Assembly: GCF_900142675.1 (NCBI RefSeq)
Contig: NZ_FRBS01000006.1
Location: forward strand, 248,001-312,000
Length of the DNA stretch: 64,000 bases
Origin: Shouchella rhizosphaerae
GTDB lineage: Bacteria > Bacillota > Bacilli > Bacillales > Bacillaceae_D
Direction of reading: 5' to 3'
Of the stretch, positions 9,723-21,136 are shown piece after piece (the first letter of the stretch is position 1; the number at the start of each line of letters is the position of its first letter). The notes under the pieces were generated by a model. It saw only the letters and a program-made list of their open reading frames with translations. It had not been told where the DNA came from and made no database searches. A program made the translations under genes and the position numbers.

Positions 9723-11078
9723 ATGAATATTAAAAACCGGATTACCTTGTTCTCCACTATTTGGCTGCTTTTATTAGTGTTGGCGGCAAATGGGACGATT
9801 TATGTCGTTTTCCAAAAAACAATAGAGAATGAAGCAGTTGAGCGTGCTGAAACACAAATGGATAATATGGCCGAGGCATTGCACACCGCTGATGCCAGTA
9901 TGGATATGTCTCGCTTTCTAAGAGCTTATTTGCCTGCCGATTCGATGATTCGGATCATATCGGAAGATGGAAAAAGTTTGCTTGACGTAGCGAGAAGTCG
10001 AGAGATGACAGAGCTACCTACGGTTTACCGTGAAGGGGAACAGAGCGAAATGCGCCGCATAGAGGGGGAATTGTATACTGTAGCAGCTCATCCAGTCATT
10101 TGGGAGAATGGAGAAGTAGTGTCCCTTGAACTAACGGAAAAACAGGGGACTATGGAGAATACGCTCAGAGTGCTGCAAGTCATTTTGGCGATCGCCACCT
10201 TAATGATTGTAATTCCTTCTTTTATAGGCGGGCGCGTCTTAAGCAATTTGATTGTTAATCCGATTGCTGCCATGATCCAGACAATGGAGGAAATCCAAAA
10301 ACGTGGCACATTTAAACGTATCGCGTTTGAAAAGAAGTCAAATGACGAACTGACCAAAATGGCGCAAACGTTTAATCGAATGATGGATTTGCTTGAAACC
10401 AATTATAAAAAACAAGAACAATTTGTCTCCGACGCTTCCCACGAGCTAAAAACGCCATTAACGGTCGTAGAAAGTTATGCCAAATTGTTGAAAAGGTGGG
10501 GGAAGGAAAAGCCTGAGGTTTTGGAAGAAGCGGTAGAGGCCATTTACTCAGAATCTGTCCGCATGAAGGAGATGGCCCAGCAAATGTTGCTCTTGGCCGA
10601 AGATGAGTCGCAGTTTAAAATTGATTGCCAAAAAATCGACTTAGTGGAAGTGGCAAGGGAATCTGCGCTAAATTTAGAGAGAGCATTTGGACGGTCAATC
10701 ATTGTAGATGCAGCCACAAACAAAGTTGAATTGCACGGCGACCCCCAAAAAATAAAGCAGCTGCTGTTTATTTTATTGGACAATGCCATCAAATACAGCG
10801 CCGCGCCTGTCAAAATCACGGTTGCCTCAGTTGAAGCCGAAGCACAAATCGCAATAACAGACAGGGGCATAGGCATTCCGAAAGATGAATTAGACAACGT
10901 GTATAATCGCTTTTACCGCGTGGATAAGTCCCGCACAAGGGGAACAGGTGGAACTGGTTTAGGACTGCCGCTTGCTAAGCGAATCGTGGACGCCCATCAT
11001 GGAAAGATCGAGCTTGTAAGCAAAGAGGGCGAAGGGACAACCGCAACTGTTTATCTTCCGTTGCACCTAAATCACTGA
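9723..11078 (+). CDS. Sensor histidine kinase (YkoH/ArlS-like)
   Basis: Membrane-bound kinase of 451 aa, partner of the preceding regulator. A membrane segment at about 10-30, an extracytoplasmic domain of roughly 115 residues, a second membrane segment at about 150-175, HAMP, a HisKA domain with phosphoacceptor His240 (SDASHELKTPLT) and a HATPase domain with N box (LDNAIKYS), G1 (ITDRGIGIP) and G2 (GTGGTGLGLPLAK) are all in order. No frameshift is seen. The extracytoplasmic part may be the place where the PepSY proteins encoded next exert control, since PepSY domains often modulate membrane proteases or sensors. Confidence 0.92.
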   Translation: MNIKNRITLFSTIWLLLLVLAANGTIYVVFQKTIENEAVERAETQMDNMAEALHTADASMDMSRFLRAYLPADSMIRIISEDGKSLLDVARSREMTELPTVYREGEQSEMRRIEGELYTVAAHPVIWENGEVVSLELTEKQGTMENTLRVLQVILAIATLMIVIPSFIGGRVLSNLIVNPIAAMIQTMEEIQKRGTFKRIAFEKKSNDELTKMAQTFNRMMDLLETNYKKQEQFVSDASHELKTPLTVVESYAKLLKRWGKEKPEVLEEAVEAIYSESVRMKEMAQQMLLLAEDESQFKIDCQKIDLVEVARESALNLERAFGRSIIVDAATNKVELHGDPQKIKQLLFILLDNAIKYSAAPVKITVASVEAEAQIAITDRGIGIPKDELDNVYNRFYRVDKSRTRGTGGTGLGLPLAKRIVDAHHGKIELVSKEGEGTTATVYLPLHLNH

Positions 11079-12832: not shown

Positions 12833-13560
12833 ATGAATATTGTCTTGGCTCCATCAGGCTTTAAAGAGAGTGTCAGCGCAGAACATGTCGCTGCCAACAT
12901 GAAGGAGGGAATTATTTGGGCTTTGCCTGAGGCGAAGGTGATCTCTGTCCCTTTATTCGATGGAGGGGAAGGGTTTACAGAAACGATGGTAGCGTGGACG
13001 GACGGCACATTGCATTCAGCTGAGGTGACTGGACCAATAAACCAACAGGTGAAAGCGATATTTGGTTTTTTGGCACTGGTGAGAAACGTACGGCTGTGAT
13101 TGAAATTGCTTAAGCTGCGGGGTTGAAACATGTACCGAGAGAGAAGAGGAACCCGTTGTTCACGTCATCATTTGGTGTAGGGGAATTGATCAAAAAAGCC
13201 CTCGATTTTGGGGCGGAGCGTATCCTTGTTGGCTGTGGCGATTCAGGCATTAGTGATGGGCATAGGGATGGGACAAGCGTTAGGCATTCGTTTTTTCGAT
13301 CAAACTGGATCGGTATTCGACGCAAGGAAGGGGGCTGTTGTTTTGCCATCTATTGCTGCCATTGACCTTAGTGGCATAGACCGGTCTAGCTTATATCCCC
13401 ATAGATGTTGCTTGTAATTGGCATAACGTCTTATGTGGAAAAAATAGGGTTGCCCGTATTTTTGGGGCGCAAAAAGGCGCATCCCAGATGCAAATTGATT
13501 TATTGGATCGTGGTCTTCAAAATTTGGCAGAACGAATCGTGGAAACAACTAGCGTCCGTG
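12833..13560 (+). pseudogene. Glycerate kinase (GlxK/GarK type), decayed
   Basis: Remnant of a glycerate 2-kinase. The start is intact (RBS TTAGGAG, then MNIVLAPSGFKESVSAEHVA and FDGGEGFTETMV), but the frame breaks near 13095. Later pieces appear in other frames: GVGELIKKALDFGAERILVG and GCGDSGISD (about 13170-13260), MGQALGIRFFDQTGSVFDARKG (about 13268-13335) and VACNWHNVLCGKNRVARIFG with AQKGAS (about 13405-13490), matching the order of a normal glycerate kinase of about 370 aa. At least three frame changes and loss of the last third make a functional product very unlikely. No intact neighbour of glycerate metabolism remains. Confidence 0.85.
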
Positions 13561-14052: not shown

Positions 14053-14184
14053 ATGAAAAAGAAATCATCTAGCAACTTAAAACGAATCCGCTTGGACCAA
14101 GAGCAACCAAAAGACGGTATCACACTAGCTGTGGTTGGAGCAGGGACAGGTAGCGTGAAATTAGAAGACATGGAACTCAATTAA
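14053..14184 (+). CDS. Candidate RiPP precursor peptide, 43 aa
   Basis: Small ribosomal peptide immediately upstream of two radical SAM genes. The N-terminal half is basic and polar (MKKKSSSNLKRIRLDQEQ) and looks like a leader; the rest (after PKDG) is ITLAVVGAGTGSVKLEDMEL plus Asn, a hydrophobic, Gly/Thr/Val-rich segment as expected of a core. It contains no Cys, Trp, Tyr, Phe or His. A very strong SD (GAGGGAGGAGGG) precedes two in-frame ATGs, 14047 and 14053; the second has normal spacing. A hairpin between this gene and the first enzyme could keep peptide mRNA in excess. No named family was recognised. A modified peptide product is inferred from context and composition, not from similarity. 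Confidence 0.7.
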   Translation: MKKKSSSNLKRIRLDQEQPKDGITLAVVGAGTGSVKLEDMELN

Positions 14185-14198
14185 TTTAATTGGCCTTC

Positions 14199-14220
14199 GG
14201 GAGGTGCAACAGCGCCTCCC
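14199..14220 (+). promoter_or_regulatory. Hairpin between precursor and first radical SAM gene
   Basis: GGGAGGTG and CGCCTCCC can pair (one G-U) around a 6-base loop. It is followed by ATTAACAT and not by a T run, so it is more like a processing or stability hairpin, or a weak attenuator, than a full terminator. This is a common arrangement when a precursor must outnumber its enzymes. Confidence 0.6.
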
Positions 14221-14245
14221 ATTAACATAGTGGGTGGTGGTTTTA

Positions 14246-15538
14246 ATGGTAATGATTCCGTATCAAGTAAACGACGGAGGGATTGTCGGGCTGTTGCCGA
14301 CTGGGAAGGTTCACTTTTTTGAAGAGGCGGCCAAGGCGGAATTCGACCGGTTTAATAAAGGTGAGCGCATTGACCTCACAGCTTTAAATCGTTACATAAT
14401 CCCTGACCCGTTAGTCGATTTAAATAAATTTCATTTAAGCGCGCCTGCGATTGCGTTTATTGAAACAACGAATTTATGCAACTTGCGCTGCAAGCATTGT
14501 TACGCTAACTCGGCGTACAAAAGGCCAAATGAGATGTCAACCGAGTTAATCAAAGAGACGATTGACCAACTTGCAGACGCTGGCATTCTCCAACTGTTTT
14601 TAAGCGGGGGAGAAATTTTCGCTCATCGAGATGCGGTGGAAATTATCAACTACGCGAGAACAAAGCCTTTTTATACACAAGTTTTTACTAATGGCCTTCT
14701 CATTACAGAAGAAAAGCTGGCGGCGCTAGCGCCAAATACGTCTTTTTTCATTAGTTTTGATACCGCTGATCCAGAGCGGACGATTCGAGGGGGAATGGAT
14801 TTTCCGAAACTGAGGCAAAAGTTTGAATGGATGAAAAAGTATGGACATGCGTTCAGGACAGCGATTTCTGTCCATCGCTATAACTTAGATGACGCTGAGG
14901 AAATTTTTGAATGGTGTGCCCAAAACGGCTATCCGCGCCCGCAATGGCTCGAAACCCATCCAATTGGCCGAGCGCTTATGCATCCCGACATCTTGTTGCC
15001 GCCGGAACTCGTTAATAAATCAATTGCCATTTATAAGAAATGCATGGATCGTTTCAGCAAGCCCGAATTTGAGAAACCACCTGCTAGTGAACCAGTTGAA
15101 GCGACGCGGATGTTTAGTTTAGAAACGGTTAAGTTTTGCCAGAAAGTTGAACGAGAAACAAACCAAGAGAAATGTGGAAGGACGATTGCCTACATTAACA
15201 GTGCTGGAGATGTTTACCCTTGCAGCAATTGTATGAGCAACGACGATTACAAAGCAGGCAATTTACGAGATCATTCTTTTAAAGACATATGGGAACAAGG
15301 CTTTGACGAGTTTCGTAGCATTACATTTGATGAATTTGCAGGATGCCAAAGTTGTGATGTTTACCAAGAAGGCATTTGGTGCCAGTTCCGTTGCCCGCCA
15401 CTGGCAAAGAATGTTTCTGGCGACAAGCTTGGGTGTGGGGCAACCGAATATTTACAGCGCTTTATGCTCGAGGCAAACCGTTACTGGGAAGAGAGGAAGC
15501 GAGCAGGTTACAAATTGCAATTGCAAATTGACCAATAG
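14246..15538 (+). CDS. Radical SAM/SPASM peptide-modifying enzyme
   Basis: Probable maturase of the small peptide encoded just before. The product is about 430 aa. Residues 1-70 (GGIVGLLPTGKVHFFEEAAK) could form a PqqD-like peptide recognition element. The radical SAM core follows with the iron-sulfur motif CNLRCKHC near residue 75, the glycine-rich SAM contact LSGGE, and a TIM-barrel-like stretch. The C-terminal SPASM region (about 300-410) has many Cys: FCQKVERETNQEKCG, VYPCSNCMS, AGCQSCDVYQEGIWCQFRCP and GCG, enough for auxiliary clusters. RBS is weak (GGTGG), consistent with lower expression than the peptide; the ATG at 14252 is an alternative. It reads as a member of the anSME/SPASM group, exact reaction unknown. 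Confidence 0.85.
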   Translation: MVMIPYQVNDGGIVGLLPTGKVHFFEEAAKAEFDRFNKGERIDLTALNRYIIPDPLVDLNKFHLSAPAIAFIETTNLCNLRCKHCYANSAYKRPNEMSTELIKETIDQLADAGILQLFLSGGEIFAHRDAVEIINYARTKPFYTQVFTNGLLITEEKLAALAPNTSFFISFDTADPERTIRGGMDFPKLRQKFEWMKKYGHAFRTAISVHRYNLDDAEEIFEWCAQNGYPRPQWLETHPIGRALMHPDILLPPELVNKSIAIYKKCMDRFSKPEFEKPPASEPVEATRMFSLETVKFCQKVERETNQEKCGRTIAYINSAGDVYPCSNCMSNDDYKAGNLRDHSFKDIWEQGFDEFRSITFDEFAGCQSCDVYQEGIWCQFRCPPLAKNVSGDKLGCGATEYLQRFMLEANRYWEERKRAGYKLQLQIDQ

Positions 15539-15549
15539 GGGGAGTACAG

Positions 15550-16986
15550 ATGGCTCTGAATCAAACGGAATTGAATGTAGGCGAATTGCTTAAGAGGCAT
15601 CCTGAATTGCAAATTTCTCACAATAATTATAACATTAATGTAACTGCTAATTTCGGGGAAACAATTGAAGGAGCAGCGTTGGCTGATTTGTATAACCACT
15701 TTGATGGCGCAAACAAGCCAGCAACATTGTATTTTCATGTGCCTTTATGTTCCTACATCTGTTATTTTTGCAATTACGTGAAAAAGTATTTGCCTCAAAA
15801 TGGGAAAGAAGAAGAAGTGCTCGATCGGTGGGTAAACCTTTTAATTAAAGAATCAACCAGCACGATTGGACAAGCGCCTTGGGTAACGAAAGCAAAGATT
15901 GAATCGATTTACTTAGGCGGCGGGACTGCTTCACTGATGAAACCGCATCAACTGGCAAAGATTGTTGCACACATTAGGGAACATTACACGATCGCGAATG
16001 ACTGTGAAATATCACTCGAGGGAAATCCAGACAATTACCAGGGCGATGAAATTGAACAGGCGCTAGAAATGGGATTTAACCGCTTTAGCATGGGTGTGCA
16101 ATCATTGGAAGACGATGTGATTAAAGCGGTCGGCCGCAAACATGACAGAAAAATGTCAATTGATGCGATTAACAAGTTGCTTTTGTCTAACAAACCGTTC
16201 AATGTCGATATTATTTTTGGGTTGCCTCACCAAACAGCGAACAGTGTTGCCCGTGATATAGAAGTGCTCTGCGATATGGGTGTGCCGACGATTACGATTT
16301 ACCGTTTGCGCAATGCCGATAGGCAAAAGATGGGGATTGGCAATGTGTCATTATGGAATAATGACCGTGTGAGGGAAAAGATGGAAGCTGAGGGGCTATT
16401 TCCGACATTGGAGCAAACATATCAAATGCGCGAGGAGATTTTGAAGGTGTTCCTCAAGTATGGTTATGAGCCTAGCCCTTGCGGATGGTGGAGTCGAAAA
16501 AACACGTATCCTGAAGGGAATATTCCACAAATTTCGAAAAATAAATGGGAGCGCTATGACTCCATGATTGCCTACGGACCAGGCGTATATGGCTGGCTAA
16601 ATGATAAGGAAGGCACTATTTTGCAAACCCATAATGTTAGCGATATTAATCGCTACGTGGAACGGATGGAAAACGATGAATCACCGTCTTCTTTTGGCAG
16701 GATGCTAACGGGAAATGAAGCGATTTCCACTTCATTAGGGTTTAATTACAAGTCAAACCAACCAATTCAGTTGAGCCGCTATCAAAAAGAGTTTCATGTC
16801 GACTTGATCAATGACGAACCTTATGCAGGAGTCATTCGATCATTGCTCGAAAGTAATTTATTAATGAAACTGGATGACGACCGCTTGTTGCCTACCCTTG
16901 AAGGGGAAGCGCTGCATGAAGAAATCATCTCTGTCTATTTCCACGGGCAAATTGGGCAATTTTCTTCGGAAATTTGCCATAAGTAA
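15550..16986 (+). CDS. HemN/HemW-like radical SAM protein
   Basis: Second radical SAM enzyme, 478 aa, 11 bases after the SPASM enzyme and therefore co-translated. The cluster motif is CSYICYFC near residue 64 in FHVPLCSYICYF, the CX3CX2C spacing of the HemN family, followed by YLGGGTASLM, SLEGNPDNY, RFSMGVQS and DIIFGLPHQT, all typical HemN/HemW landmarks. The C-terminal part resembles a HemN winged-helix end. HemN-like proteins include coproporphyrinogen dehydrogenases, heme chaperones and class C radical SAM methyltransferases that use two SAM molecules. Because it stands inside a peptide-modification cassette and not near heme genes, C-methylation of the peptide or related chemistry is inferred. 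Confidence 0.82.
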   Translation: MALNQTELNVGELLKRHPELQISHNNYNINVTANFGETIEGAALADLYNHFDGANKPATLYFHVPLCSYICYFCNYVKKYLPQNGKEEEVLDRWVNLLIKESTSTIGQAPWVTKAKIESIYLGGGTASLMKPHQLAKIVAHIREHYTIANDCEISLEGNPDNYQGDEIEQALEMGFNRFSMGVQSLEDDVIKAVGRKHDRKMSIDAINKLLLSNKPFNVDIIFGLPHQTANSVARDIEVLCDMGVPTITIYRLRNADRQKMGIGNVSLWNNDRVREKMEAEGLFPTLEQTYQMREEILKVFLKYGYEPSPCGWWSRKNTYPEGNIPQISKNKWERYDSMIAYGPGVYGWLNDKEGTILQTHNVSDINRYVERMENDESPSSFGRMLTGNEAISTSLGFNYKSNQPIQLSRYQKEFHVDLINDEPYAGVIRSLLESNLLMKLDDDRLLPTLEGEALHEEIISVYFHGQIGQFSSEICHK

Positions 16987-16997
16987 GGCGATATCAC

Positions 16998-17678
16998 ATG
17001 GAAATGAATTCAACCAGATATCGATTGCACGAGAACATCCCTTTTCGTTCTAAAAAAATCGTTTTGATTGTCCAATCGGGGCAAATGGGAAAATTCGATG
17101 AAGAAGGCGCTGAAGGAGAGCGGAAGCTATACGACCAATTGGAAGCAAGTTTGGTCGAAGAAAAAATCGGTGTCTGCCGGTTTGATTTTCCTGACCGGGT
17201 CAACCGCAGAGAAAGCATATCAGACGAAGAGTATCGCGATCGGGCGTCGCGTTTAAGTGCGGTTTACCAACGGATTAAAACAGCACACCCTGCGTGTGGC
17301 CTTACGTTTATAGGGATGTCATTAGGAGCAAACCTCGTTTTAGAGAAGCTGCAAAGCGTTACAAGCCCTTCGTCAGCAGTGTTAATTGGTTTGTATGTTG
17401 ATGAGCCGGTTACTGTTGCCGAACAAGTTGAAGCGATCAGTCTTGTATATGGAAGCGAGGATTACATTGCGTTTGGTGAGAATATAAGCCTTGCTAATTT
17501 GATCGCGCCTGCGAAGTACAGCCAAACTGTGAGAAGCTGTATAAACAGCGCAGCGCCAGTCGAAACATTGATTTTAAAAGGATTGGGACACTCGCTCAAT
17601 CCAATGAACAGTGAGGCGGAAGGGCCAATTGCCCGTCTTGTTCGCCTAGTAGGAGGAGGAAAATCGATTCATGAATAA
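16998..17678 (+). CDS. Alpha/beta hydrolase
   Basis: Small hydrolase of 226 aa with a serine triad: nucleophile in FIGMSLGANL (near residue 112), acid in LVYGSEDYIAF (about 157) and His in KGLGHSLNP (about 199). No signal peptide or membrane segment. RBS AAGGCGAT is 7 nt before the ATG; the 3' end overlaps the methyltransferase gene by 8 bases. In a RiPP setting it could cleave the leader, an ester, or hydrolyse a lactone, or it could be a resistance enzyme; there is no direct evidence for any of these. It is not a member of the C39 or S41 leader peptidase families. Confidence 0.8.
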   Translation: MEMNSTRYRLHENIPFRSKKIVLIVQSGQMGKFDEEGAEGERKLYDQLEASLVEEKIGVCRFDFPDRVNRRESISDEEYRDRASRLSAVYQRIKTAHPACGLTFIGMSLGANLVLEKLQSVTSPSSAVLIGLYVDEPVTVAEQVEAISLVYGSEDYIAFGENISLANLIAPAKYSQTVRSCINSAAPVETLILKGLGHSLNPMNSEAEGPIARLVRLVGGGKSIHE

Positions 17679-18429
17679 AAGTGCCCAACGGTTTAACCAA
17701 ATCGCAGACAATTTTTTAAATAGCGAGGTCCACAAAGCAAGTCCTTCGATTGACCAGTTAAAGATGCTGTTAGGAGAGGTGCATGACAAAGCGATTTGTG
17801 ATGTTGCATGCGGATCGGGCCATTTGGGGTTGGCGCTTGCACCCCACTCATTGACGAGTGTTGACCCTTCTGAATCTATGTTGGCCAATGTTGAAAAGCT
17901 TGCTGCTACAAAAGGAAAAAGCGTTAAAACCGTTTGCGCTTACGCTGAGGACTTGCCTTTTGACTCGGAGCAATTTGACATTGTCGTAACGCGGCTGGCA
18001 GCCCACCATTTTACCGATATCGCGTTAGCGATAAAAGAAATGAAACGAGTAACCAAAAAAGGTGGAACAATCGCGATTATTGACTTGGAAGGGTATGAAG
18101 ACAAACAAGTTGACCAATTCAATCATGAATTGGAGCTGCTCCACGACGAAACGCATATTAAAAGCTACTCTTACCAAGAATGGCTCAACCTTTTTACACA
18201 CGAAGACCTAACAGTAGTAGAAGGATTTAGCGATTTAAGCGAAAAGCCAGGAGGCATCAGCATCAAACGGTGGTGTGAAATTGCTTCTTCTGGTTGGGAA
18301 GCAGAGCGTGAAATCCGCGCTAAATTGGAACAAGCACCTGCCCATTTTTTAAAGACGATGGGAATTGAAAAACGAGAAGATGATTTTTACATTCCTGTAA
18401 GGACAGCAATGTTCCTTCTGACGAAATGA
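17671..18429 (+). CDS. Class I SAM-dependent methyltransferase
   Basis: Cytoplasmic methyltransferase of 252 aa. The Rossmann fold signature is DVACGSGHLGLALA (about residues 44-57), followed by the acidic residue of SVDPSESML, AYAEDLPF and the DIVVTRLAAHHF strand, as in UbiE/ubiquinone-type methyltransferases (family 11). The RBS AGGAGGAGG lies in the end of the hydrolase gene, and the reading frames overlap, so translation is coupled. Its substrate is unknown; a methylation of the peptide (N-terminus, side chain or carboxylate) or of a small intermediate is likely from position. Confidence 0.82.
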   Translation: MNKSAQRFNQIADNFLNSEVHKASPSIDQLKMLLGEVHDKAICDVACGSGHLGLALAPHSLTSVDPSESMLANVEKLAATKGKSVKTVCAYAEDLPFDSEQFDIVVTRLAAHHFTDIALAIKEMKRVTKKGGTIAIIDLEGYEDKQVDQFNHELELLHDETHIKSYSYQEWLNLFTHEDLTVVEGFSDLSEKPGGISIKRWCEIASSGWEAEREIRAKLEQAPAHFLKTMGIEKREDDFYIPVRTAMFLLTK

Positions 18430-18439
18430 GGGAAAAGGG

Positions 18440-18793
18440 ATGCCAGTGATTACAATTCATTCGCCGCTTGACTGTCCCTCAAATGAAGAGTTACTAGGCA
18501 AAATCGCCAACACGGTCACAAAAGAGTTGGCGATCCCCGCAGACTATTGCTGGGTACTATGGAACAAAATTGAGCACGCCTATAAACAAGATTGGCTGAT
18601 GAACCCTTGTCCTGCTCCAATTGTCAAAATGGTTTGCAAACAAAGCCATTCATCTGAAAAACTAGAAGCGCTTTTGCCAAAAATGAAGCAAGTGATTGCT
18701 TATTGTGAAGGGTGTCAGGAAGAAGAGATTTTCATCTGTGTACAAAAGATTGAAAGAGGCTATTTGCTGATTCGAGACGAGGTGTGGACATGA
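18440..18793 (+). CDS. Tautomerase-superfamily-like protein
   Basis: Protein of 117 aa that starts Met-Pro (MPVITIHSPLDCPSNEELL), the signature of the 4-oxalocrotonate tautomerase superfamily, in which the exposed Pro1 is the catalytic base after Met removal. The first half fits one beta-alpha-beta unit; the second half (about 60-117) is less similar and contains several Cys (CEGCQEEE). It may act as a tautomerase on a keto/enol intermediate or simply be a binding protein; presence in a radical SAM cassette is unusual. It is tightly packed between two methylating enzymes and overlaps the next gene by ATGA. Confidence 0.6.
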   Translation: MPVITIHSPLDCPSNEELLGKIANTVTKELAIPADYCWVLWNKIEHAYKQDWLMNPCPAPIVKMVCKQSHSSEKLEALLPKMKQVIAYCEGCQEEEIFICVQKIERGYLLIRDEVWT

Positions 18794-19269
18794 CAGGCAA
18801 AAAGCAAACGACAACGATAGAATACATTGGCCACGTCCGTTCGCCGCGGACTGAAATGACTGATGACCATTGGGGCTCCGTCATTAGCGAAATTGTTGTG
18901 GACGAGAAGATTCCCCTTTCTGCCTTAAAAGGACTAGATTCTTTTTCCCATTTGGAAATCGTCTTCCACATGGATCAAGTGGACCAAAACAAAATTGTCT
19001 ACCAAGACCGCCATCCACGCAATAATACAGACTGGCCAAGCGTCGGCATATTTGCGCAAAGAGCGAAAGGCAGGCCGAACGCAATTGGTGTGTCTAGATG
19101 TGCGTTGTTGGAAATGAACGGAAATAAGCTAACTGTAAAAGCGTTAGACGCGATCGATGGCACCCCTGTCATTGACATTAAGCCCTATGTCAACGAGTTT
19201 GGCCCGATTGGTGAAGTTAGGCAACCGGGGTGGATCACCGAGTTGATGAAAAACTACTACAAGGATTGA
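18790..19269 (+). CDS. TrmO/TsaA-type SAM-binding protein
   Basis: Protein of 159 aa of the TrmO (TsaA, VirR) family. Seen are the starting strand TIEYIGHVRSP, the LDSFSHLEIVFHMDQV segment and the strongly conserved region GIFAQRAKGRPNAIGVSRC followed by ALDAIDGTPVIDIKPYV. In bacteria TrmO N6-methylates t6A in tRNA-Thr using a beta-barrel SAM fold; short versions occur in other pathways. The start ATG overlaps the stop of the preceding gene (ATGA). Its place in this operon suggests that the family has been recruited to methylate the peptide product, but a stand-alone tRNA role cannot be excluded. Confidence 0.78.
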   Translation: MTGKKQTTTIEYIGHVRSPRTEMTDDHWGSVISEIVVDEKIPLSALKGLDSFSHLEIVFHMDQVDQNKIVYQDRHPRNNTDWPSVGIFAQRAKGRPNAIGVSRCALLEMNGNKLTVKALDAIDGTPVIDIKPYVNEFGPIGEVRQPGWITELMKNYYKD

Positions 19270-19274
19270 AGCAG

Positions 19275-20498
19275 TTGAAGCTATTAGCAAACCGTAATTT
19301 CATTCTCTTTTTTTTCGGGTCGCTCGTCTCGAAAATAGGCGATAAGCTCTATTTGATTGCCATGCCATGGATCATTTACGAATTAACGGGCTCCTCTTTT
19401 TATATGGGAGTCATGTTCTTTCTAGAGACGATTCCTTTTTTGTTCGTCTCCCCATTGGCAGGGCTGTTGGCGGATCGCTTTTCCCATAAGTTGTTGCTGT
19501 TTCTTTCTGCTTTTTTACAAGGGTTCTTTTTGTTAACAATTGTCATTGGAAACGCAGCAGTTAGCCAAATTCCGATTATCTGGATTTTTGTTTGCGGATT
19601 TTTTATTGCTTGTGGGGGAGCGGTGTTTAGCGTTGTATTAAACAGTATCATTCCGTCAATGTTTCCAAAAGATAAAATTGTGAACGTGAATTCGTCATTT
19701 CAGTTCCTTGACTCCACTTCGCTGCTGTTTGGCAGTGCTTTGGCAGGGATGTTGATTAGCATGTTCGGCGGTTTTACGGTGTTGCTTTTTGACGCTATTT
19801 CGTTTTTTATCATTTGCGCCGTTGTCTTGTTTTACCGAATCAAAAAAGAAAACATTAAAAAGATTGCTGGCGGCAGCTCTTGGAAATATCTAGTTCAAGG
19901 AGCAAGCTACGTAAAAAACCATGAAATTCTTAAACCGCTTCTTTTGATTATGATGTTAGTCAACATTTCCAATGCCGTCGTTGTCGCCTTGCTTGTCTTT
20001 TTTGCAAGAGATACATTGGCTTTGGATTCATCACAGACGGGCCTTATTTATACGATCGCTGCCGTCTCGCAAGTGCTTCTGACGTTTTTTATTCCATTGA
20101 TTACGAAAACATTCAAACGAACGAACCGGATGCTCCTCGTATGCTTAATGGTCAGCAGCGGCGGCATTGGCATTATTTCGCTTAGCACAGGGTGGGTGAC
20201 GCTAGGCCTAGCGATGATGGTTCATACAGTGCCGATCATTATTTTTAATGTCGTTAATAAAACATTAAGGATGCAAATTGTCCCTGATGATTTAATTGGC
20301 CGAGTCAACGGACTGTTTTTAATGCTAAGCAAGTCGACGTTGCCTGTTGCTGGTTTAATCGGTGGTGTGGCGGCAGAGTTTATTCATATCCGTATCGTGT
20401 TCGCCTTGCTGTGTATTTTATCATTAGCGTTGATCGTACGCTATTGGTTCCATCCATTTAACCAGGAAGCGACCACTACGCTTGAAAGAATTAGCTAA
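19275..20498 (+). CDS. MFS efflux transporter
   Basis: Major facilitator superfamily protein of about 407 aa with twelve predicted membrane segments, of the EntS/NreB-like (MFS_3) type: NFILFFFGSLVSKIGDKLYL at the start, LAGLLADRFSH between helices 2 and 3, and PDDLIGRVNGLFLM in the second half. The start is uncertain: TTG at 19275 has AAGGA 9 nt upstream; the frame is open upstream inside the TrmO-like gene. As the only transporter in the cassette it is the candidate exporter of the final product or a self-resistance pump. Confidence 0.8.
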   Translation: MKLLANRNFILFFFGSLVSKIGDKLYLIAMPWIIYELTGSSFYMGVMFFLETIPFLFVSPLAGLLADRFSHKLLLFLSAFLQGFFLLTIVIGNAAVSQIPIIWIFVCGFFIACGGAVFSVVLNSIIPSMFPKDKIVNVNSSFQFLDSTSLLFGSALAGMLISMFGGFTVLLFDAISFFIICAVVLFYRIKKENIKKIAGGSSWKYLVQGASYVKNHEILKPLLLIMMLVNISNAVVVALLVFFARDTLALDSSQTGLIYTIAAVSQVLLTFFIPLITKTFKRTNRMLLVCLMVSSGGIGIISLSTGWVTLGLAMMVHTVPIIIFNVVNKTLRMQIVPDDLIGRVNGLFLMLSKSTLPVAGLIGGVAAEFIHIRIVFALLCILSLALIVRYWFHPFNQEATTTLERIS

Positions 20499-20512
20499 AG
20501 GGAGTGGAGAAG

Positions 20513-21061
20513 ATGAAACTGGCTCTACAGCCTTTGAATATGGAAGACATTGAATTGGTTGATGAAATGTACAATGATGAAGCGGTATTTCAAACCGCTA
20601 TTTTGGGATATAACTACCCGCAAAGCCGCTTGCTCCTTAAAGGGAAATTGGAGTCTTGGATTACGAATAAATCGCAAAAGCATTTTAAAATTATGGCTGA
20701 AGAAGCAGTTGGCATTGCGCAAATCCACGATATCCATGGAGTGAATCGTACGTGCAAATTAGGGATTATGATTAAGCCTGCTTTTTGGGGAAAGGGATAT
20801 GGGCCAGAAGTTCTTCGCCAACTTGAACATATATGCTTTAACGACATTGGGTTAAGGCGCATTGAAGCGGAAGTGCTGGCCACTAACGAACGGGTTTTGG
20901 CGATGATGGAACAAGGCCACTATGAACGTGAAGGTGTCCGCAAAGAGGCCGTTTTTAAAAATGGCCGCTTTGTCGATGTCCACTATTATGGAAAAATCAA
21001 TGACACATCCATGGATCTAGGAAGGTACGATTTAGGCAAGGAAGTCGAAAAGATAAAATAG
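20513..21061 (+). CDS. GNAT family N-acetyltransferase (RimJ/RimL-like)
   Basis: Acetyltransferase of 182 aa resembling SpeG/RimJ-type enzymes: LGIMIKPAFWGKGYGPEVLRQ forms the acetyl-CoA pyrophosphate loop (about residues 83-100), followed by RRIEAEVLATNERVLAMMEQ. RBS AAAGGGAG stands 8 nt before the ATG; the frame extends upstream to a GTG inside that SD. It is the last gene before the terminator of the radical SAM cassette. It may acetylate the product, for self-protection or as a finishing step, or acetylate an unrelated amine. Confidence 0.8.
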   Translation: MKLALQPLNMEDIELVDEMYNDEAVFQTAILGYNYPQSRLLLKGKLESWITNKSQKHFKIMAEEAVGIAQIHDIHGVNRTCKLGIMIKPAFWGKGYGPEVLRQLEHICFNDIGLRRIEAEVLATNERVLAMMEQGHYEREGVRKEAVFKNGRFVDVHYYGKINDTSMDLGRYDLGKEVEKIK

Positions 21062-21107: not shown

Positions 21108-21136
21108 AAAACAGCACCTCCATTGGGTGCTGTTTT
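21108..21136 (+). terminator. Terminator of the radical SAM cassette
   Basis: Perfect 11-bp stem AAAACAGCACC/GGTGCTGTTTT with a 7-base loop and a T run. It marks the end of the cassette that begins with the small peptide gene. Confidence 0.9.

Follow-up and report, generated by a model that had tools for sequence, protein, structure and literature searches.

What is made by a compact block of nine genes that begins with a 43-amino acid peptide devoid of Cys, Tyr, Trp, Phe and His and continues with two radical S-adenosylmethionine (SAM) enzymes? The block occupies positions 14053-21061 on the + strand of the window, i.e. the whole 64,000-nucleotide stretch of contig NZ_FRBS01000006.1 of Shouchella rhizosphaerae (genome size 4.24 Mb) that was analysed. 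It encodes, in this order, the peptide, a SPASM radical SAM enzyme, a HemN-like radical SAM enzyme, a serine hydrolase, a methyltransferase, a Pro1 tautomerase, a TrmO homologue, a major facilitator superfamily (MFS) protein and a GNAT protein. A first, sequence-only reading had seen in it a new class of ribosomally synthesized and post-translationally modified peptide (RiPP) with SAM-dependent tailoring, for which it knew no named counterpart. The conserved peptide and the six-enzyme core described below support this reading, the modification and the product being predictions. The operon very probably represents a new SPASM-dependent RiPP family matching no named one that we found; this degree of confidence covers the RiPP assignment and not the chemistry. 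A search of the open literature, limited in that most subscription papers lie outside it, returned neither a description of this cassette or enzyme set nor a RiPP cluster pairing a SPASM with a HemN-like enzyme.

A six-enzyme core and a small peptide are conserved together

When the nine window proteins were compared by tblastn with seven loci, six genes (SPASM enzyme, HemN-like enzyme, hydrolase, methyltransferase, tautomerase and TrmO homologue) were found in the same order in five lineages. The lineages are Shouchella (the window and loci L006, L007 and L094), another genus of the same family (genome G117, locus L005), two other families of the class (genomes G1014 and G943, loci L092 and L093) and Taibaiella soli (L008), which belongs to the Bacteroidota, i.e. 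to another phylum. The SPASM enzymes of G117, G1014, G943 and T. soli are 82, 66, 66 and 47% identical to that of the window, respectively, and the HemN-like enzymes 72, 61, 64 and 52%. The hydrolase match of the T. soli locus is weak (23%), and MFS and GNAT are unmatched there by tblastn.

The peptide is kept as well. The four Shouchella copies (window, L006, L007 and L094) encode the same 43 amino acids and differ from each other in 0 to 4 codons, always synonymously. Between the window and G117 the 19-residue core is identical, with 11 synonymous and no non-synonymous codon differences; over 29 codons that include part of the leader, the numbers are 14 and two. That core codons change synonymously only implies selection on the amino acids and not on the codons. 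When all open reading frames (ORFs) of 20-120 amino acids at each locus were ranked by similarity to the window peptide, the ORF just 5' of the SPASM gene headed the list each time, out of 213 ORFs at L005, 228 at L092 and 261 at L093. Shuffled sequences scored as well as the real one in 1 of 5000 trials for L092 and in 14 of 5000 for L093, and in none of 5000 when L092 was compared with L093. On the strength of the codon comparison and the ranking, the peptide is more than a chance ORF. As judged by eye, the homologues have in common that the leader is basic and contains I-[RH]-[LMI] and that the core follows the pattern G-x-x-x-[AS]-[VA]-V-G-A-[GA]-(TG or H)-[ST]-V-[KR]; the conserved stretch measures about 16 residues, and its core motif (AVVGAG, AVVGAA or SAVGAG) is single and unrepeated. 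A conserved precursor thus stands next to the SPASM enzyme in four of the five lineages. The earlier proposal was to fall if cassettes lacked the small ORF or if the ORF was not conserved; neither applies in these four lineages, and the T. soli ORF has no significant similarity to the peptide. An NCBIfam match of the window peptide to CbiT (E 0.012; 15.9 bits against a cut-off of 78.3) was rejected as chance.

The composition of the peptide narrows the chemistry. Cys, Tyr, Trp and Phe are absent from all four homologous precursors, two of which contain His; Cys is absent from all five precursor ORFs, including that of T. soli, which has two Phe. The precursors therefore offer neither the core Cys from which sactipeptide and ranthipeptide thioethers are formed nor, in the four homologous precursors, the core Tyr, Trp or Phe required for cyclophane, streptide, mycofactocin or pyrroloquinoline quinone (PQQ) formation, and thioether, cyclophane, PQQ-type and mycofactocin-type chemistry is impossible on this core as known. 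We judge that the SPASM enzyme acts on aliphatic residues, since these aromatic and thiol residues are missing from the core. To our knowledge, radical SAM chemistry on a precursor without Cys, Tyr, Trp and Phe is uncommon.

In all five lineages a hairpin lies 3' of the peptide gene. Its z-score, calculated on stretches of 53-62 nt picked by eye, is -3.1 in the window and ranges from -3.0 to -7.2 at the corresponding positions of L005, L092, L093, L008 and L006. The hairpin is likely the end of a precursor mRNA or an attenuator. Compared with the window, L006 carries about 178 extra bases between the peptide and SPASM genes (9789-9986), flanked by two copies of the hairpin sequence of which the window has one; L007 has the same two copies and L094 a matching pair. 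The pattern suggests that sequence was inserted or duplicated at the hairpin, or lost from the window.

Two radical SAM enzymes of different type

The SPASM protein matches PF13186 with 44.5 bits (cut-off 21.5). Among the best 25 of its 84 NCBIfam matches none reaches the curated cut-off, the second and third being those to PqqE and to the mycofactocin maturase, at 96 bits where the cut-offs are 381 and 265. The CxxxCxxC motif and eight SPASM-region cysteines are complete in four of the five lineages. A fold model of the protein (mean predicted local distance difference test score, pLDDT, 76.1) was built on a 57-sequence alignment made up of the window, L006 and L008 proteins and 54 others with 21-28% identity to the window protein; 66 of the 79 loci of the pattern scan described below had entered the selection and 60 had passed its filter. 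In a Foldseek search the top matches of the model were a sactipeptide-type thioether enzyme (PDB codes: 5why and 5wgg), which we take to be CteB, and SkfB, anSME, PqqE and SuiB, with TM scores of 0.50-0.66 and low sequence identity. The structures nearest to the model are thus mostly peptide-modifying enzymes.

None of the 24 NCBIfam matches of the HemN-like protein attains its curated cut-off, the best being HutW (182.4 bits against 400). In all five lineages the protein has CxxxCxxC, a Tyr six residues upstream of it, and the motifs NRFS and FNVD. In HemN and NocN, the Tyr in this position stacks on the second SAM (PMC12871812). NocN is one of the two PDB sequence matches of the HemN-like protein, and on our reading NRFS and FNVD would hold the SAM-contacting Arg and Asp of NocN. 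By its motifs, the protein combines the CxxxCxxC and the residues binding two SAM that mark class C radical SAM methylases, enzymes by which a methylene radical derived from SAM is added to an sp2 carbon (PMC12871812).

Putative further tailoring enzymes and an exchangeable end module

With weak hidden Markov model matches, the hydrolase and the tautomerase are assigned by catalytic residues that are conserved. The hydrolase has a Pfam match below cut-off (E 0.011) and a Ser108/Asp155/His198 triad invariant in all five lineages; the tautomerase has an NCBIfam match with E 0.0075, no Pfam match and no model cut-off reached, and begins with Met-Pro in all five. The TrmO homologue scores just above the curated cut-off of TIGR00104 (94.9 bits against 93.25) and can be aligned with solved TrmO-type proteins over their conserved end. 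Six carrier genomes were searched for TrmO_N, and each has a single match, in the cassette (a partial one in T. soli); of the nine Shouchella genomes that lack the cassette, two were searched too and gave no match. This confinement to the cassette suggests that the TrmO homologue came with it and is not a housekeeping gene. In T. soli (L008 14363-14748) about 30 internal residues of the protein are missing and the last part matches in another frame; either the gene is broken or the sequence contains an error.

An exporter is found in four of the five lineages, as part of an end module that differs between them. Shouchella and G117 have the MFS and GNAT proteins; G1014 and G943 have another MFS protein (23-26% identity) and, at the position of the GNAT gene, an ATP-grasp L-amino-acid ligase (L092 and L093), whose LAL_C2 domain scores 75.9 and 61.1 bits (cut-off 29.4). 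The ligases match the alanine-anticapsin ligase BacD of bacilysin synthesis weakly (60.6 and 37.5 bits, cut-off 850), as distant relatives only.

Comparison with known systems

Similar to mycofactocin and PQQ biosynthesis, the cassette combines a SPASM enzyme with a short precursor. In both of these pathways a small molecule is excised and a precursor Tyr is used; the cassette precursor has no Tyr, and the corresponding models match far below cut-off.

The TVG pathway of Halomonas anticariensis (TvgA/TvgB), in which TvgB turns Val into cyclopropylglycine, via dehydrovaline as its authors propose (PMC9062424), likewise joins a SPASM radical SAM enzyme to a precursor with a Val/Gly/Thr core. TvgA, however, carries a repeated TVGG motif, which is absent here, where one AVVGAG-like core stands unrepeated; and tvg includes a dioxygenase and peptidase/transporters, the accessible part of that report naming no HemN-like enzyme, tautomerase, TrmO or GNAT. 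The two systems are set apart here by their described features. The same report lists 22 unexplored SPASM pathways, and the present cassette could be among them (PMC9062424).

The class C methylases of thiopeptide pathways (NosN/NocN, TbtI and PbtM2/3) resemble the HemN-like protein in their dual-SAM motifs and RiPP setting (PMC12871812, PMC11285071). Thiopeptide clusters differ from the nine genes, among which there is no thiazole-forming or dehydratase gene, and the core here is aliphatic and without Cys. Outside RiPPs, the radical SAM enzyme C10P and the methyltransferase C10Q close the cyclopropane of CC-1065 (PMC6050322), and so provide another pathway that employs a methyltransferase alongside a HemN-like enzyme. 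In the cassette the genes for these two are separated by that of the hydrolase; this comparison, too, is by description.

A proposed pathway

We propose that the 43-amino acid peptide is the precursor, its basic N-terminal half being the leader and its Gly/Val/Thr-rich second half the core. The SPASM enzyme would act on the core first, most likely on the Val-Gly-Ala-Gly-(Thr/His) stretch, by desaturation. The HemN-like enzyme, using two SAM, would then add a one-carbon unit to the resulting sp2 carbon, alone or jointly with the class I methyltransferase, which would complete the one-carbon product. Such a relay is coherent in the light of the TvgB, class C and C10P/C10Q precedents. The tautomerase and the TrmO homologue may adjust the product further, the serine hydrolase may cut it from the peptide and the MFS protein may export it. 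The GNAT protein, or the amino-acid ligase in two relatives, would cap its free amine, plausibly for self-protection. The genes, their order, the conserved peptide and the catalytic motifs are observed; each chemical step, the sequence of steps, the release and the capping are what we infer from them. In its fullest form the proposal is tentative and, taken as a whole, rather doubtful: that the peptide serves as a scaffold, the SPASM/HemN-like/methyltransferase relay turning one or two of its aliphatic residues into a C1-elaborated, possibly cyclopropyl, non-protein amino acid; that the Pro1 tautomerase and the TrmO-fold enzyme are new kinds of RiPP tailoring enzyme; and that the hydrolase excises an antimetabolite which one branch of the family masks by N-acetylation and the other by aminoacyl ligation. 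If true, it would add a tautomerase and a TrmO-fold methyltransferase to the enzymes of RiPP biosynthesis.

Alternative explanations

That a whole modified core peptide, bacteriocin-like, is made rather than a small excised molecule comes close to an even chance: four of the five lineages have an exporter, the conserved stretch measures about 16 residues, and known SPASM RiPPs are mostly whole peptides. A peptidase-ABC exporter, however, was not found among the nine genes with Pfam and NCBIfam, MFS exporters and BacD-like ligases usually serve small molecules, and the number of enzymes is high for a short core that has no reactive side chains. The TrmO homologue, instead of tailoring the peptide, could be a tRNA methyltransferase for self-protection, which would make the product an agent that hits decoding or a tRNA synthetase. 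The curated TrmO cut-off that it reaches and its alignment over the conserved end of solved TrmO-type proteins fit such a role, which we nevertheless regard as unlikely: the gene sits inside the biosynthetic block in all five lineages, and in T. soli it looks broken while the other genes are open.

In another alternative the peptide is no substrate. Its translation might control transcription of a small-molecule pathway through the hairpin, the SPASM enzyme acting elsewhere; in favour of this, a hairpin stands behind the peptide gene in all five lineages, as at attenuators. A regulatory leader is nonetheless very improbable, as the 19 core codons differ synonymously at 11 places between window and L005 with no non-synonymous difference, the peptide has no run of one amino acid, and the SPASM model resembles mostly peptide-modifying enzymes.

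Several observations weigh against the RiPP assignment or against parts of the pathway proposed for it. Modification of the peptide is so far unobserved. With tblastn at E 1e-3 the peptide was matched in Shouchella and L005 and missed in L092, L093 and L008; its identification in L092 and L093 rests on position and ranking, given this miss. In T. soli the 65-amino acid ORF at the precursor position ranks second of 301, with 343 of 5000 shuffles as good; it was not accepted as a homologue of the peptide, and it was not found in the 146 other genomes searched in its family. The T. soli SPASM enzyme (L008 9989-11269) is without three of the eight SPASM-region cysteines, two of them being replaced by Asp, and an auxiliary cluster may therefore be lost or differently ligated. 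No Pfam match to a RiPP recognition element (RRE) or PqqD domain was found in the four N-termini tested. The RRE fold begins in strand-strand-strand-helix order; residues 1-37 of the SPASM protein are modelled in this order with pLDDT mostly below 50. The nine genes include no recognised peptidase family, the hydrolase being assigned by its triad, and its fold model, built on four sequences, has a pLDDT of 57.5 and was kept out of the fold search. The best NCBIfam match of the ligases is PRK02186 (154.3 and 135.1 bits, cut-off 625), which is closer to them than BacD.

Distribution and possible mobility

The cassette is rare and scattered in the sampled genomes. Of the 13 genomes sampled from the genus, 4 are carriers, as are 3 of the 398 from the class and 1 of the 398 from the phylum; around T. 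soli carriers make up 1 of 294 in its family and 1 of 320 in its class, and in the families of G1014 and G943 they are 1 of 10 and 1 of 1, respectively (the samples overlap, and the carriers of each include the genome at its centre). Within the order, 397 genomes were searched with the SPASM protein, and two proved to be carriers, the window genome and G117. With the HemN-like profile, relatives were found at E <1e-230, and the next match in four carrier genomes was no better than 1.6e-30. Among named relatives, the cassette of the window is closest to those of Shouchella clausii AKU0647 and S. tritolerans, with SPASM proteins that are 98% identical. A two-peptide-pattern scan of 84,980 named species yielded 79 loci, three of them with the cassette, in S. 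tritolerans, S. clausii and T. soli; the other 76 served as alignment depth for the SPASM fold model only, their neighbourhoods being left out. Neither pattern occurs in the SPASM proteins of G943 and G1014, so the scan is blind to them and may have missed similar ones.

With five lineages, a short precursor and two interchangeable end modules, the cassette forms a compact, testable family. Strains of the S. clausii group, in which the cassette occurs, are studied as probiotics, and a secreted product of the cassette could therefore matter in practice.

Among plasmids, the SPASM search returned just three Mesorhizobium records (about 29.5% identity, unrelated context), and the HemN-like search gave nothing at E 1e-30. 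Among phages, four records had distant radical SAM matches in the SPASM search, and one scan of viral contigs gave no HemN-like relative. In G117 two group II intron reverse transcriptase ORFs (L005 4150-5424 and 15880-16941) flank the cassette on a 124-kb contig, and beyond one flank L005 18187-20000 matches an Alkalihalophilus plasmid at 81%; the G117 cassette is possibly plasmid-borne and mobile. On a Mesorhizobium huakuii plasmid (L003 8127-21146) the distant SPASM relative (29.5%) lies beside genes for a B12-binding radical SAM enzyme, an alanine racemase, a TldD-related peptidase, transketolase and a P450, possibly another unexplored pathway.

Gene coordinates and operon boundaries

All nine ORFs were recovered in the order and on the strand that the sequence-only reading had given them (Table 1). 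From the SPASM to the GNAT gene, neighbours overlap or are separated by 11 nt at most; the gap between the peptide and SPASM genes is 49 or 61 nt, depending on the start codon, and contains the hairpin. The SPASM ORF opens at a GTG (14234); the homologues favour the downstream ATG listed in the table. An AGGAGG ends 7 nt 5' of the peptide ATG, and the TrmO homologue and MFS genes overlap by 7 to 40 nt, depending on the start codon. The operon is closed by a terminator-like stem, the longest of its kind in the region, where such sites (8 against a shuffle mean of 8.6) show no excess.

Table 1 Features of the operon and its end in the window of S. rhizosphaerae
Feature	Position	Strand	Basis
Gene for the 43-aa precursor: basic leader containing I-R-L, aliphatic core GITLAVVGAGTGSVK	14053..14184	+	ORF list; homologues in L005, L092, L093
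Hairpin between peptide and SPASM genes	14199..14220	+	Fold z-score
Radical SAM/SPASM peptide maturase (predicted)	14246..15538	+	Pfam/NCBIfam, motifs, fold model
HemN-like radical SAM enzyme, class C methylase type	15550..16986	+	CxxxCxxC with Tyr six positions before it; NRFS, FNVD
Alpha/beta hydrolase, Ser108, Asp155, His198 (GMSLGA, GSED, GH)	16998..17678	+	Invariant residues; low-confidence fold model
Class I SAM-dependent methyltransferase, UbiE/YcgJ-like	17671..18429	+	Pfam/NCBIfam
Tautomerase-superfamily protein, Pro directly after start Met	18440..18793	+	Invariant Pro, weak HMM (hidden Markov model) match
TrmO/TsaA-type SAM methyltransferase, sole TrmO_N match in genome	18784..19269	+	TIGR00104, Pfam
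MFS exporter, start codon uncertain (~19230)	19230..20498	+	Pfam/NCBIfam
GNAT acetyltransferase	20504..21061	+	Pfam/NCBIfam
Terminator-like stem at operon end	21108..21136	+	12 pairs and T run

On the 5' side of the operon a glycerate kinase gene (window 12833-13362) is broken, its PF02595 matches being split over two ORFs in different frames; as read from these matches, the gene beside the cassette is decayed.

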